Part shown: positions 32,516-39,448 of the stretch, in pieces
Position numbering within the stretch: position 1 is the first letter of the stretch
Layout: the number at the start of each line of letters is the position of its first letter
Assembly (NCBI RefSeq): GCF_027257935.1
Contig: NZ_JANZKW010000005.1
Location: forward strand, 62,001-126,000
Source: Chitinimonas sp. BJYL2
GTDB lineage: Bacteria; Pseudomonadota; Gammaproteobacteria; Burkholderiales; Chitinimonadaceae
Length of the DNA stretch: 64,000 nt
Direction of reading: 5' to 3'
Program-made: the position numbers and the translations under genes
Notes under the pieces: generated by a model
The model's input: only the letters and a program-made list of their open reading frames with translations
The model's database searches: none
What the model was told of the DNA's origin: nothing

Positions 32516-32992
32516 TCAGCGATACTCGGGGTGTTTTTCGGTAAACCGCCCGAGCCGCTGTGCCGCCATCTTGCGCACCTTGTTGCGCAGCAAGGGCGAC
32601 CAGCCCAGCAAATAGCCGGGCGCACCCAATGCCATACGGCTCCAAGCCCAGAAGTCGAACTGATCTTCATGACGCAGGATCAGGCCATCGCGGAAGCTGA
32701 AGCGCGCCTGGATACGGTTGTGCACGGTACGGCCGGTCTGCGAGAAGGGATAGATGGCTTCCCAGCTGGCTGAGCCCTCCCCTCGGTCGCCCTGCACATG
32801 GTTGAAGCGGATTTCCAGCGCTGTTGCGCCCTCGATCAGCATGCGCCACATGGCCGCAGGCTGCTTGCCACGCAGATCGAAAGCCGGATCGCTGAAATGC
32901 GCCTCAGGGTGATAGCAGGCTGCCATGGTTGCCCAATCGCCTTGCTGAAAGGCGGTGTAGAACCGCGTGATCAGTGCTGCCTCTGCCGTCAT
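32516..32992 (-). CDS. NTF2-like (SnoaL-type) protein
   Basis: A 158-residue protein with an NTF2-like domain: N-terminal helix ALITRFYTAFQQGDWATMAACYHPEAHFSDPAF, then strands with EIRFNHVQGD and RIQARFSFRDGLILRHEDQFDFWAWSRMALG. The C-terminal basic extension (LRNKVRKMAAQRLGRFTEKHPEY) is unusual. It may be a polyketide-cyclase-like or ketosteroid-isomerase-like enzyme; substrate unknown. ATG 32992 is preceded by GGGAG and chosen over an in-frame GTG at 33013. Confidence 0.8.
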   Translation of the reverse strand: MTAEAALITRFYTAFQQGDWATMAACYHPEAHFSDPAFDLRGKQPAAMWRMLIEGATALEIRFNHVQGDRGEGSASWEAIYPFSQTGRTVHNRIQARFSFRDGLILRHEDQFDFWAWSRMALGAPGYLLGWSPLLRNKVRKMAAQRLGRFTEKHPEYR

Positions 32993-33031
32993 GTCCCGCT
33001 CCCGTGCCGCCACCTGTGCGGTGGCGGGGAT

Positions 33032-34309
<1,278 letters not shown>

Positions 34310-34432
34310 TCAGCGGGTGACCCACCAGAGCACGATGAGCACGAAAATCCAGGGCAGATTCACAAGAAAAAGCCCCAGCCGGCTAGGCTTGGGCTTTTCA
34401 TCCCGTGGCGGCCCTACGGGCGGTTTTTCCAT
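34310..34432 (-). CDS. 40-residue membrane microprotein between ibaG and murA
   Basis: An ATG at 34430-34432, inside the last codons of ibaG (19-base overlap in another frame), opens a 40-codon frame ending in TGA 25 bases before murA. The product begins with a Pro/Lys-rich cytoplasmic stretch (MEKPPVGPPRDEKPKPSRLG) and ends in one clear membrane segment (LFLVNLPWIFVLIVLWWV) and TR. The positively charged side before the helix suggests N-in. Position, overlap and amino acid composition support a real gene; homology was not tested. Confidence 0.6.
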   Translation of the reverse strand: MEKPPVGPPRDEKPKPSRLGLFLVNLPWIFVLIVLWWVTR

Positions 34433-34653
34433 TCGTGCGGGCTGTAGGTTTTCATCGACAGCGCGTGGATTTCCTCGCGCATGCGCTCACCGAGCGCCTG
34501 ATACACAAGCTGGTGCTGGCGTACACGCGGCAGGCCATTGAAGGCATTGGCCACGATGGTGGCTTCGAAGTGATGACCATCGCCAGCGACTTCGAGCACT
34601 TCGCAAGCCAGACCGGCAGCGATGTATTGTTTGACTTGTTCAGGGGTAACCAT
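34414..34653 (-). CDS. ibaG: BolA/IbaG family protein
   Basis: BolA-family protein (79 residues) that works with monothiol glutaredoxin in iron-sulfur trafficking and acid stress. It shows VAGDGHHFEATIVANAFNGLPRVRQHQLVYQALGERM with the conserved His-rich loop (GDGHHFE) and ends HALSMKTYSPHEW, typical of the IbaG branch normally found next to murA. Confidence 0.92.
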   Translation of the reverse strand: MVTPEQVKQYIAAGLACEVLEVAGDGHHFEATIVANAFNGLPRVRQHQLVYQALGERMREEIHALSMKTYSPHEWKNRP

Positions 34654-34681: not shown

Positions 34682-35437
34682 TCAGTGTTTGAGCTTGTAG
34701 CCGGTACGCAAAAGATGCAGCGAGAATGCCATGAGGCCGATGAAGGTGCCAGACACCACCACCAGGCTCAGCCAGGGCGAAACATCGCTGACGCCAAAGA
34801 AGCCGTAACGGAAACCATCAATGGCATAGAAAACCGGGTTCAGATGCGATACGCCCAGCCAGAAGGCCGGCAAGGAATGTATCGAGTAGAAAACGCCCGA
34901 CAAAAACGTCAGCGGCACGATGATGAAGTTCTGGAAGGCGGCAAGCTGATCGAATTTCTCAGCCCAGATGCCGGCAATCAGCCCCAGTACCGCCATCACC
35001 CCCGCCCCCAGCAAAGCAAAAACCAGAATCCATAGCGGGTAGACGAAGGCGGGCATGGCAAACATCAAGGTGGCCACCAGCACGCCGGCCCCAACAACCA
35101 ACCCCCTCGCCACGGCAGCCAGCACGTAGGCGAGGAAGAATTCCAGATGTGACAGGGGTGGCAGCAGGATGAAGACAATATTGCCCGTGATCTTGGACTG
35201 GATCAGGCTGCTGGATGTATTGGCGAAGGCGTTCTGCAATACCGACATCATCGCCAGACCGGGGATCAGGAAGGCGGTGTAACGCACGCCGGGATAGGCT
35301 TCAATATGGGATTCCAGCACATGCGAAAAGATCAGCAGGTACAGCACGGCCGTGAGCACGGGTGCGGCCACCGTCTGGAAGCTGACCTTCCAGAAGCGCA
35401 GGATTTCCTTGTAGAACAGGGTCGCAAAACCTTGCAT
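34682..35437 (-). CDS. ABC-2 type transporter permease (YadH-like)
   Basis: Membrane subunit of an ABC-2 exporter (251 residues, six membrane segments). It starts with the typical YKEILRFWKVSFQTVAAPVLTAVLYLLIF (core YKEILRFWKV) and contains the family signature IIVPLTFLSGVFYSIHSLP. Substrate unknown. It lies five bases after its ATPase gene. Confidence 0.9.
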   Translation of the reverse strand: MQGFATLFYKEILRFWKVSFQTVAAPVLTAVLYLLIFSHVLESHIEAYPGVRYTAFLIPGLAMMSVLQNAFANTSSSLIQSKITGNIVFILLPPLSHLEFFLAYVLAAVARGLVVGAGVLVATLMFAMPAFVYPLWILVFALLGAGVMAVLGLIAGIWAEKFDQLAAFQNFIIVPLTFLSGVFYSIHSLPAFWLGVSHLNPVFYAIDGFRYGFFGVSDVSPWLSLVVVSGTFIGLMAFSLHLLRTGYKLKH

Positions 35438-36405: not shown

Positions 36406-36431
36406 GTAGCACCGAGTGCGCACGGTGCTAC
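36406..36431. other. Hairpin at the 3' end of mlaA
   Basis: Perfect 9-bp inverted repeat GTAGCACCG / CGGTGCTAC with an eight-base loop overlapping the mlaA stop codon. No T tract, so probably an mRNA 3'-end structure and not a strong terminator. Confidence 0.45.
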
Positions 36432-37213
36432 TGGGCGGGCACGGATGATGCGTCAGCAGCGGCCGGCTCGGCGGCGGAAGGCGCAGCTGCCGAATCGGCC
36501 GGGTCATACTCCTCGTCCTCACCCAAAGGCAGTGGCTTGGGCGGACTCCCATCCCAGACCAGGTTGTAGCGACGCTGCAGGTAGGCGTCGCGTACGAAGG
36601 CGTATTCATCACCAAAACCCGCCGACGCAACCAGTGACTCGGCCGCAAACAGCTTGGTGCGCTGATCCACGACGCGCAGCAGAGACAAGCCCGTCACTGC
36701 ATCGTCATCGTTGATGGCCTGCACGGGGTCCATCGCCATCGAACCGACGGTATCCGCCGTATCACGCAGGGTTTTTGGGCCCATCAGCGGTAACACCAGA
36801 TAGGGACCAGACTCCACACCCCATGCGCCCAGCACCTGGCCGAAATCTTCGTCATGCTTGGGCAGGCCGGCGGGTGTGGCAATGTCGATCAGGCCTCCGA
36901 TACCCAGCGTGGTGTTGAACACAACCCGGCCAACGTCGCTCGCGGCCTCGCGCCACTTGCCTTGCAGCAGGTTCGAGGCGCCGATGTAGACGTCCTCCAG
37001 ATTGCTGAAGAAGTTGGACACTCCGGTGCGCACAGGCGCCGGGGTTACCGCCTGGTAGCCCTTGGCGACGGGCTTTAGCACAGCCTTATCGACCGCACTG
37101 TTGAAGGCATAGACCTTGCGGTTGATCGGTTCGATCGGATCGTAGTGGTTCGCCGGGGTGGCACAAGCGCTCAGCAGGGTGAGCGAGGACAGGGAAATCA
37201 GGGCTTTTTTCAT
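36428..37213 (-). CDS. mlaA: MlaA outer-membrane lipoprotein (VacJ family)
   Basis: Outer-membrane component that extracts mislocated phospholipids and passes them to MlaC. 261 residues; lipobox LLSAC with lipidated C17, then YDPIEPINRKVYAFN and the core LEDVYIGASNLLQGKWREAASDV. The last about 45 residues are acidic and Pro/Ala-rich. In the same direction as mlaBCDEF, so the whole Mla system is here in one cluster. Confidence 0.94.
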   Translation of the reverse strand: MKKALISLSSLTLLSACATPANHYDPIEPINRKVYAFNSAVDKAVLKPVAKGYQAVTPAPVRTGVSNFFSNLEDVYIGASNLLQGKWREAASDVGRVVFNTTLGIGGLIDIATPAGLPKHDEDFGQVLGAWGVESGPYLVLPLMGPKTLRDTADTVGSMAMDPVQAINDDDAVTGLSLLRVVDQRTKLFAAESLVASAGFGDEYAFVRDAYLQRRYNLVWDGSPPKPLPLGEDEEYDPADSAAAPSAAEPAAADASSVPAQ

Positions 37214-37258
37214 ACCGGGGTTCCGGAGCGGGTTCGCTGCAGCATAGACCAGATCCCG

Positions 37259-37531
37259 TCAGCAAACCGGTGGCAGCAGCGGCTCCACACCGTAAAGCGA
37301 GGACAGGGTGCGCAGATTCTCGGGCGGCGCCTGCAGGCTCAGCTTGCGGCCCGCGGCCGCCGCGTCGCGCTGCCAGTGCAGCAGAAGGCTGATGGCGGTG
37401 GAATCGATCTCGCTGACCTCGGCCAGATCGATGACCAGCTCCGGTTGATCCAGCGCCGTCGCCATCTCGGCCCTGACCCGGCACACCGAGTCCAGCGTCA
37501 GGGCACCGCGCAGCTTTACGACTTCCGCCAT
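37259..37531 (-). CDS. mlaB: MlaB-like STAS domain protein
   Basis: STAS-domain partner of the MlaF ATPase (90 residues). Conserved segment VIDLAEVSEIDSTAISLLLHW carries the DST motif with the Thr needed for MlaF binding in E. coli MlaB. Small size and position between mlaC and mlaA agree. Confidence 0.88.
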   Translation of the reverse strand: MAEVVKLRGALTLDSVCRVRAEMATALDQPELVIDLAEVSEIDSTAISLLLHWQRDAAAAGRKLSLQAPPENLRTLSSLYGVEPLLPPVC

Positions 37532-37534
37532 GGC

Positions 37535-38146
37535 TTACTTGCCTGTCTTGGCAGGTTGAGCCGCATTGCGGTCAGCCAGTGCCTTGATCAAACCGTTGAT
37601 GCCATCTTTCTGCACGGTCTGGTTGAAGCTGGTGCGGTAGTTGGTCACGAGGCTCACACCCTCGACCGCCACATCGAACACTTTCCAGTCATTACCAGCC
37701 TTGGCCAGACGGTAATCGATGGGGAAAGGCTGTCCGCCGGTGATCTTGACCTCGGTACGTACCGTGACTTCCGTATCGGTGGGGCTCATGCGTACCGGCT
37801 TGACGTCGATATCCTGCAGCTTGTTGGTGCCCACTGCCGTCGAGTAAGTGCGCAGCAGCAAGGTGCGGAACTCGCGTACCAGTGCAGCCTGCTGCTCTGG
37901 CGTAGCCTGACGCCAAGACTTGCCCACGGCGGATGCGGTCAGGCGGTTGAAGTCGAAACTCGGCATGACCTTGGCCTCGACCAGATCGCGGAAGCGCTTA
38001 TCGGTGGGCTGCAGATTGTCTTTCTTGATCGCTTCGAGCACATCCTTGCTGGTTGTGCGAACCAGTTGCTCGGGCGCGGGCGCATCGGCAGCGGCCATGG
38101 CGCCCAGACCGATCAGCAGCATGAAGAAGGCGAATAGCTTGCGCAT
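37535..38146 (-). CDS. mlaC: MlaC periplasmic phospholipid carrier
   Basis: Tol-Tol-Ttg2-type protein shuttling phospholipid across the periplasm (203 residues). Signal peptide of about 20 residues (FAFFMLLIGLGAMAAADA), then LVRTTSKDVLEAIKKD, SFDFNRLTASAVGKSWRQATPEQ and WKVFDVAVEGVSLVTNYRTSF, all typical. Confidence 0.94.
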   Translation of the reverse strand: MRKLFAFFMLLIGLGAMAAADAPAPEQLVRTTSKDVLEAIKKDNLQPTDKRFRDLVEAKVMPSFDFNRLTASAVGKSWRQATPEQQAALVREFRTLLLRTYSTAVGTNKLQDIDVKPVRMSPTDTEVTVRTEVKITGGQPFPIDYRLAKAGNDWKVFDVAVEGVSLVTNYRTSFNQTVQKDGINGLIKALADRNAAQPAKTGK

Positions 38147-38171
38147 GGGGGTTCCTTGTTATGGGTCCGGC

Positions 38172-38657
38172 TTATTGAGCGGGGGTATCTGAAGGCGGAT
38201 TCTCCGCCGCCTTGCTGAACATGAACTGACTGATCAGTTTTTCCAGCACCACGGCCGACGAGGTCAGCGCGATCTTGTCGCCGGACTTGAGCATGGCCTC
38301 CTCGGCACCGGCTTCGATACCGATGTATTGGTCGCCCAGAATGCCCGAAGTCAGGATCTCGGCCGAAGAGTCGCGGCTGAACTGGAACTCCTGTTCGATA
38401 TCCATGGCCACCACGGCACGGTAGGTTGTCGGATCGAGCTGGATGCTGGCCACTCGGCCTACCAGCACACCGGCGCTCTTGATCGGCGCACGCGCCTTCA
38501 GGCCACCGATATTGTCGAAAGCAGCCGTTACACGGTAGGTGGGTTTACCGCCACTTGACGAGACATTGCTGACCCGCAACGCCAGGAACACCAAGGCCGC
38601 GAGACCCAGCATCACAAACACGCCTACCCAGAAGTCATACACCCGGCGATTCATCAA
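38172..38657 (-). CDS. mlaD: MlaD MCE-domain protein
   Basis: Periplasmic hexameric MCE ring subunit anchored in the inner membrane (161 residues). N-terminal anchor (FWVGVFVMLGLAALVFLAL) and one MCE domain (YRVTAAFDNIGGLKARAPIKSAGVLVGRV; core FDNIGGLKARAPIKSAGV). The start overlaps the mlaE stop. Confidence 0.95.
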   Translation of the reverse strand: MMNRRVYDFWVGVFVMLGLAALVFLALRVSNVSSSGGKPTYRVTAAFDNIGGLKARAPIKSAGVLVGRVASIQLDPTTYRAVVAMDIEQEFQFSRDSSAEILTSGILGDQYIGIEAGAEEAMLKSGDKIALTSSAVVLEKLISQFMFSKAAENPPSDTPAQ

Positions 38658-39448
38658 ACACCCCTAAACATGAACGCGGTCAGGACAAAGTCCAGACCCA
38701 GAATAACCAGCGAGGACGTCACCACGGTACGCGTGGTGGCACCCGACACCCCTTCGGCGGTCGGCGGTGCATCAAAACCCTCGAATACGGCAATCACCGA
38801 GACGGCGATACCGAATGCCACACTCTTGATGAGGCCATTGCCGATGTCGTAGTACAGATCGACCTGTGACTGCATCTGCGCCCAGAACGATCCGGCATCC
38901 ACGCCGATCAGCATCACGCCAACCACATAACCACCCAGAATGCCCATGGTGGAAAACAGCGCGGCCAGAATGGGCATTGCAATCACGCCGCCCCAGAAGC
39001 GCGGCGCAACCACGCGGGCGATCGGATTGACCGCCATCATTTCCATGGCCGCCAACTGCTCGGTGGCGCGCATCAGGCCGATTTCCGCCGTGATGGCCGA
39101 GCCGGCACGGCTGGCAAACAGCAGACCGGCAACGACCGGGCCCAGTTCACGCAGCAGACTCAGCGAAACCAGCACACCCAAGGCCTCGGATGCGCCAAAG
39201 CGCACCAGCGTGTCGTACCCCTGGAGACCCAGCACCATGCCCACGAACAGGCCCGACACCAGAATGATCACCAGCGAGAGCACGCCAGAGAAATACACCT
39301 CGCGCACGACCAGCGCAGGCCGGCGCCAAGCCGTGGCCGAATGCCACAGCAAGGCCATGAAGAAGCGAAAGCCGAAACCCAGCTTGATCAGCGCATCGAC
39401 AATCGGTGCGCCAAGGTTACGTAAGCGTTTATCGAGCCACTCAGACAC
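38654..39448 (-). CDS. mlaE: MlaE permease
   Basis: Membrane permease of the Mla ABC complex (264 residues, five to six membrane segments). Contains the characteristic GLFVGMVLGLQGYDTLVRFG, LGPVVAGLLFASRAGSAITAEIGLMRATEQ and FGVVVGVM-like repeats. Overlaps mlaF by eight bases. Confidence 0.95.
   Translation of the reverse strand: MSEWLDKRLRNLGAPIVDALIKLGFGFRFFMALLWHSATAWRRPALVVREVYFSGVLSLVIILVSGLFVGMVLGLQGYDTLVRFGASEALGVLVSLSLLRELGPVVAGLLFASRAGSAITAEIGLMRATEQLAAMEMMAVNPIARVVAPRFWGGVIAMPILAALFSTMGILGGYVVGVMLIGVDAGSFWAQMQSQVDLYYDIGNGLIKSVAFGIAVSVIAVFEGFDAPPTAEGVSGATTRTVVTSSLVILGLDFVLTAFMFRGV

Follow-up and report, generated by a model that had tools for sequence, protein, structure and literature searches.

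The 64,000-nucleotide stretch of DNA analysed here (the window) carries on its minus strand, in this order, the mla genes, ABC-2 transporter genes, ibaG, a 40-codon frame and murA. The 40-codon frame (34432–34310) lies in the -1 frame relative to ibaG and translates as MEKPPVGPPRDEKPKPSRLGLFLVNLPWIFVLIVLWWVTR. It shares its first 19 bases with the end of ibaG, and its stop codon is placed 24 bases ahead of the murA start at 34285. The features are as follows.

34310–34432, minus strand: small gene for a predicted single-span membrane protein of 40 residues (open frame, homologues in the same place, coding tests)
34432–34430 and 34312–34310, minus strand: ATG (likely start) and TGA stop codon of the small gene (open frame)
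34319–34375, minus strand: predicted membrane helix, residues 20–38, with an NLPW motif at residues 25–28 (Kyte-Doolittle, AlphaFold2)
34368–34398, minus strand: terminator-like hairpin within the small gene, AAAAGCCC-N15-GGGCTTTT, with one stem mismatch (folding, genome pattern count)
34414–34653, minus strand: ibaG, BolA family, upstream of the small gene (Pfam BolA, E 1.8e-17; the name ibaG is from context)
33032–34285, minus strand: murA, downstream of the small gene (Pfam EPSP_synthase, E 1.4e-118)
34682–35437, minus strand: ABC-2 transporter permease, upstream of ibaG (Pfam ABC2_membrane)
36428–39448, minus strand: mla genes for MlaA, MlaC, MlaD and MlaE (Pfam for all four Mla proteins)

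The frame at 37259–37531 amid the mla genes is presumably STAS-like. On the plus strand, a 549-codon open frame (32798–34447) runs antisense to murA and crosses the small gene; it is probably a by-product of murA codon use.

Coding evidence and the predicted protein

Sequence comparison identifies the 40-codon frame as a genuine protein-coding gene. Six Chitinimonas sequences were compared over an ungapped block of 17 codons surrounding the helix. Their in-frame protein similarity is 973, whereas shuffling the alignment columns gives a mean of 430 (sd 94), and none of 5000 permutations scores as high. L006 is left out of this test, its protein being identical to that of L005. When the test is repeated with 18 of the 22 extracted sequences (L006, L123, L124 and L131 left out), none of 500 shuffles is as high. 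The pooled pN/pS is 0.138 over 27 within-genus pairs, which share sequences and so are not independent. In the helix block the pooled pN/pS within the genus is 0.38, so selection there looks weaker than across the pooled pairs. The dN/dS of the window copy in this block is 0.14, 0.16, 0.17 and 0.48 against four genus members, and the comparison with the fifth is saturated. Judged by these ratios, the small protein is under purifying selection in the relatives. A chance open frame is ruled out by the permutation test together with pN/pS.

The sequence-only reading had placed a gene for a small single-helix membrane protein between ibaG and murA, and the homologues in place and the purifying selection bear this out. 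It had also named stops or indels in close relatives as what would speak against the gene; the frame is intact in the six other genomes of the genus.

The protein consists of a charged, Pro/Lys-rich N-terminal half and a C-terminal helix with a Leu-Pro-(Trp) motif. The membrane helix of the sequence-only reading therefore stands, and so does the Pro/Lys-rich part, but the latter forms the N-terminal half and not a tail. The top Kyte-Doolittle window is 2.22 at residues 20–38. AlphaFold2 predicts a single helix at residues 18–39, with a mean pLDDT of 83 for residues 21–30 and 94 for residues 31–40, and leaves the N-terminal half uncertain (mean pLDDT 63–65). All 23 aligned homologues have one C-terminal hydrophobic stretch in common, with hydropathy above 1.6 in 22 of them. 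Pro27 is invariant, Leu23 and Leu26 are nearly so, and the Trp after the Pro is variable. L279 has NVPW, which is outside the scripted motif, and its locus was read separately. The net charge ahead of the helix is positive in 19 of the 23, suggesting that the N-terminus would stay inside. With 40 residues, within the limit of about 50, and one helix predicted by both hydropathy and AlphaFold2, the protein belongs to the descriptive class of small single-span membrane proteins. Homologues in the neighbouring family f5 are longer, with an additional N-terminal segment around an RF-L-I pattern, and homologues reach 76 residues by their longest start.

The window protein matches no Pfam family at E up to 1, no NCBIfam family at E up to 10 and none in PHROGs. 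The 23 homologues give scattered weak matches to Pfam and NCBIfam (best E 0.0072), none of which reaches a curated cut-off, and a comparison with solved structures gives four weak unrelated matches (best E 0.041). The homologues make up a family of small single-span membrane proteins that is lineage-restricted and has no entry in the libraries searched. A literature search on Chitinibacteraceae and small proteins found no paper, and among the matches listed for Chitinimonas and murA none is on the small gene by its title.

Distribution among relatives

A search with the 40 residues recovers homologues in all six other Chitinimonas genomes (E 1.1e-10 to 5.1e-5). Of the 10 genomes sampled in the window's family, 8 have the homologue in the ibaG–murA gap, among them all 7 from Chitinimonas. 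G008, from another genus of the family, has it in the same place (E 0.04 with the 40 residues, 4.5e-16 with a profile); in G007 and G009 an ibaG-like gene is present, but the small-gene arrangement is missing. The neighbouring family f5, which we take to be Chitinibacteraceae, gives profile matches in 43 of 43 genomes and 11 of 11 genera. Its members include, by identical proteins, Silvimonas amylolytica, Andreprevotia chitinilytica and Chitinilyticum aquatile. Placement between ibaG and murA was established in 30 of these 43 genomes, the other 13 being counted by profile match. A third family, f14, matches in 3 of 3 genomes. Loci were examined for 33 of the 46 genomes of f5 and f14, and the small gene sits in the ibaG–murA gap in every one. 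Formivibrio citricus (L034, 1811–1990) is an exception in arrangement: its small gene ends 10 bases ahead of murA, and no ibaG is found in the 1.8 kb upstream of the small gene. Here the small gene stays with murA and not with ibaG.

Across 300 genomes of the order, 288 of which have strong matches to murA, all 19 small-gene matches below E 1e-4 sit in the ibaG–murA gap. The next three were also inspected, and single inspection ended with them; G022 (E 0.0012) is in the gap, and G060 and G273 are not. The stretch ahead of murA was examined in 70 loci of other families, and in 56 of them ibaG is directly upstream. Gaps of 70 bases or less, too short for the small gene, are found in 46 of these, and the 10 with longer gaps contain no such frame by eye, three of them containing a glutaredoxin-like gene; in the other 14 of the 70, ibaG was not found just upstream of murA. 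At the ibaG–murA locus the small gene is missing from families f32 and f51 and from two named Neisseriaceae loci. The 71 named loci L040–L110 were compared by ibaG-to-murA distance only, not by short frames. A search of 274 genomes of the class yields no credible match beyond the window genome. Five genomes have a match at E up to 0.02, one of them the window's own. The other four (0.0019 to 0.010) were considered as a wider family and rejected, three of them lying inside frames of 574–815 residues and one crossing a stop.

The wide betaproteobacterial conservation envisaged at first is not what we find; the gene occurs in the window's family, f5, f14 and Formivibrio, and the other sampled families are without it. 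On a MurA tree of 34 rows (G007 and G009 not included), the distribution of carriers requires three changes, perhaps a single gain plus two losses (one in f32, the other in f51 plus Neisseriaceae). One family has the gene in all its sampled genomes and close neighbours lack it, which offers clean natural comparisons of function.

A monothiol-glutaredoxin-like gene (KGTPQFPQCGFS), presumably grxD, lies between ibaG and murA in L208, L236 and L237, from other families. Such a gene at this position fits the known BolA–glutaredoxin partnership.

The hairpin and the start codon

A hairpin resembling a terminator had been noticed within the coding part, and the folding agrees. The segment 34364–34400 has a folding energy of -19.4 kcal/mol and a z of -3.46, and one of 200 shuffles does equally well; the folding of the longer stretch 34286–34432 is unremarkable (z -0.94). 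The pattern AAAAGCCC-N5-20-GGGCTTTT occurs at 32 sites of the genome (G000, bidirectional form) against 0 for a control pattern, so the hairpin has the usual terminator form of this genome. Its GC-rich stem and U-tract make it a predicted intrinsic terminator. At the other 31 sites, the covering frame reaches a codon score of roughly zero or higher in five cases (L244, L245, L252, L258 and L267), and the rest score lower. No calibration on known genes underlies this score, and it is equally high for the antisense frame across the window site, so it cannot settle whether the 31 sites are intergenic. At the hairpin itself, a search for RNA families gives only a chance-level match to Thr_leader (E 2.6).

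Between ibaG and murA, a sense terminator-like hairpin is present in six of 41 scanned loci: the window, L009, where it is also inside the gene, and L122, L286, L288 and L289, where it is near the murA start. L009 is the sole other in-gene case, and its hairpin is weaker (-11.4 kcal/mol); a terminator-form hairpin within the small gene is seen only in the window species. The U-tract comes from Leu-Phe-Leu coded as CTT TTT CTT, as against CTG TTC CTG for the identical residues in L002 and L007. CTT accounts for 4% of the Leu codons in 15 window genes and TTT for 34% of the Phe codons, and the joint chance of CTT TTT CTT is 0.0006, for a triplet picked after the fact.

It is possible, though we think it rather unlikely, that in the window species one stretch holds two codes, a conserved membrane protein and a full intrinsic terminator made through synonymous codons, with translation gating murA. 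Ribosomes that pass from ibaG on into and across the small gene would in that case cover the hairpin, and RNA polymerase would reach murA; poor translation of ibaG or of the small gene would give less murA. MurA is the first committed enzyme of peptidoglycan synthesis. If true, the dual use would link wall synthesis to how well a BolA protein connected with iron-sulfur handling is translated, and a working embedded terminator would be a compact case of translation governing a wall-synthesis gene. The available text of PMC7815308 describes RNA 3' ends within coding sequence in E. coli, to which the window hairpin bears a likeness, and ascribes the aceK int 3' end to intrinsic termination. Compared with the E. 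coli ends as described there, the window has a predicted terminator of the usual genome form, in a very short gene and in one species.

The same hairpin might belong to a leader or attenuator frame, in which the act of translation sets murA through the embedded terminator and the peptide does little. The terminator form within the frame and the U-tract built from synonymous codons would fit such a leader, but only L009 among the 41 loci also has an in-gene hairpin, a weaker one, and the low pN/pS indicates that the peptide is under selection. We regard this explanation as improbable.

The position of the start codon bears on how the small gene would be translated. Counted from the ibaG stop, the start falls at -3 (ATGA or GTGA), 0 or +3 in 29 of the 30 f5 loci and at 0 or +3 in two of the three f14 loci. 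A start codon that overlaps or touches an upstream stop is the usual sign of coupled translation, so the f5 starts imply that translation is coupled to ibaG; Formivibrio is without an upstream ibaG. All 8 loci of the window's family offer a single candidate, the ATG at -18, which is likely the start, with no ribosome-binding site or Shine-Dalgarno sequence visible at it. The upstream ATG, present in many loci, stems from the Glu-Trp codons of IbaG (GAATGG). Because this ATG lies within IbaG codons and no Shine-Dalgarno sequence is visible, the exact start in the window's family is uncertain, and the conservation seen over its first six codons is confounded. The sequence-only reading had held that the hairpin would make annotation pipelines miss the gene. 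This is not supported, since to our knowledge gene finders give terminators no weight; the small size, the overlap with ibaG and the lack of a visible ribosome-binding site would be likelier reasons.

A frame at -1 to ibaG that overlaps its end, in a family with no clear Shine-Dalgarno sequence, could also be reached by a -1 frameshift near the end of ibaG, which would fuse it to IbaG and give a membrane-anchored IbaG. We consider this very unlikely, as the 29 of 30 f5 loci that start at -3, 0 or +3 are consistent with ordinary re-initiation, no slippery run is kept among eight sequences by eye, and Formivibrio has the small gene with no ibaG upstream. Nor is there much room for a non-coding origin, an intergenic ibaG–murA terminator crossed by a chance open frame. 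Several codons of the small gene are rare, its codon score is only about zero, and the hairpin, in the usual terminator form of the genome, has a z of -3.46. However, the protein is kept in relatives without the window's hairpin, the coding tests are strongly positive and all 43 genomes of the neighbouring family carry the small gene, which makes this origin scarcely credible.

Envelope context and a candidate role

The small gene is placed just before murA and, in nearly all checked carriers, just after ibaG. An ABC-2 permease motif is found in 41 of 46 related loci (counted by presence, with some species twice). All 13 genomes examined for MlaC encode it, and in 12 of them its gene is no more than 4 kb away from the small gene. 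The genome G008 has two MlaC genes (C1:474403 and C7:362501), only one of them near ibaG–murA. Position, coupling, the ABC-2 motif and the nearby MlaC point to a role in the cell envelope. The reading that we consider probable from these sequence data is that the small gene encodes a real 40-residue one-helix membrane protein, kept before murA, that serves as an inner-membrane accessory or anchor for the envelope function of its operon. It would be translated mostly by ribosomes fresh from finishing ibaG, enter the inner membrane with its N-terminus inside, and act as an accessory or anchor for the envelope function of its mla/ABC-2/ibaG/murA operon. The weakest step is the partner, which could be IbaG, MurA, or the ABC-2 or Mla transporters. 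Formivibrio keeps the gene at murA without ibaG, so a tie of the small protein to IbaG becomes less likely, and we rate IbaG as a doubtful partner. A divergent PspG-type envelope stress protein is extremely unlikely. Weak matches to the PspG models are seen for two of the 23 homologues in NCBIfam (best E 0.0072) and for one in Pfam (E 0.022), but the window protein itself has no match, 21 of the 23 have none at E 0.1, and the gene context is mla-ibaG-murA.

In summary descriptions, AcrZ, CydX, MgtS and YohP resemble the predicted protein in having about 50 residues or fewer, one hydrophobic helix and no enzyme domain, and several of them are described as adjusting larger membrane proteins. The likeness is by description and not by sequence. 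As far as those descriptions go, the protein of the window differs in its C-terminal helix behind a charged N-terminal part, which is longer in relatives, and in its gene context.

According to the available text of PMC6747721, ibaG in E. coli and Vibrio cholerae lies downstream of mla genes and upstream of murA, as it does here. The window differs from the order given there by ABC-2 transporter genes between mla and ibaG and by the small gene between ibaG and murA. The same text reports that Vibrio cholerae without IbaG has an altered shape and altered envelope integrity, and that the growth defect worsens when mlaBCD is also lost. With the small protein as a putative envelope accessory, a conserved small membrane protein family joins an operon of mla lipid transport, an iron-sulfur-linked BolA protein and murA.

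The IbaG proteins themselves vary between families. Those of f5 are divergent, with 40–49% identity to the window's IbaG (L032, L033, L035–L037 and L122–L127), and MurA in the loci with divergent IbaG is near 80%; the IbaG proteins of f14 and f32 have 64–81% identity to the window's IbaG.
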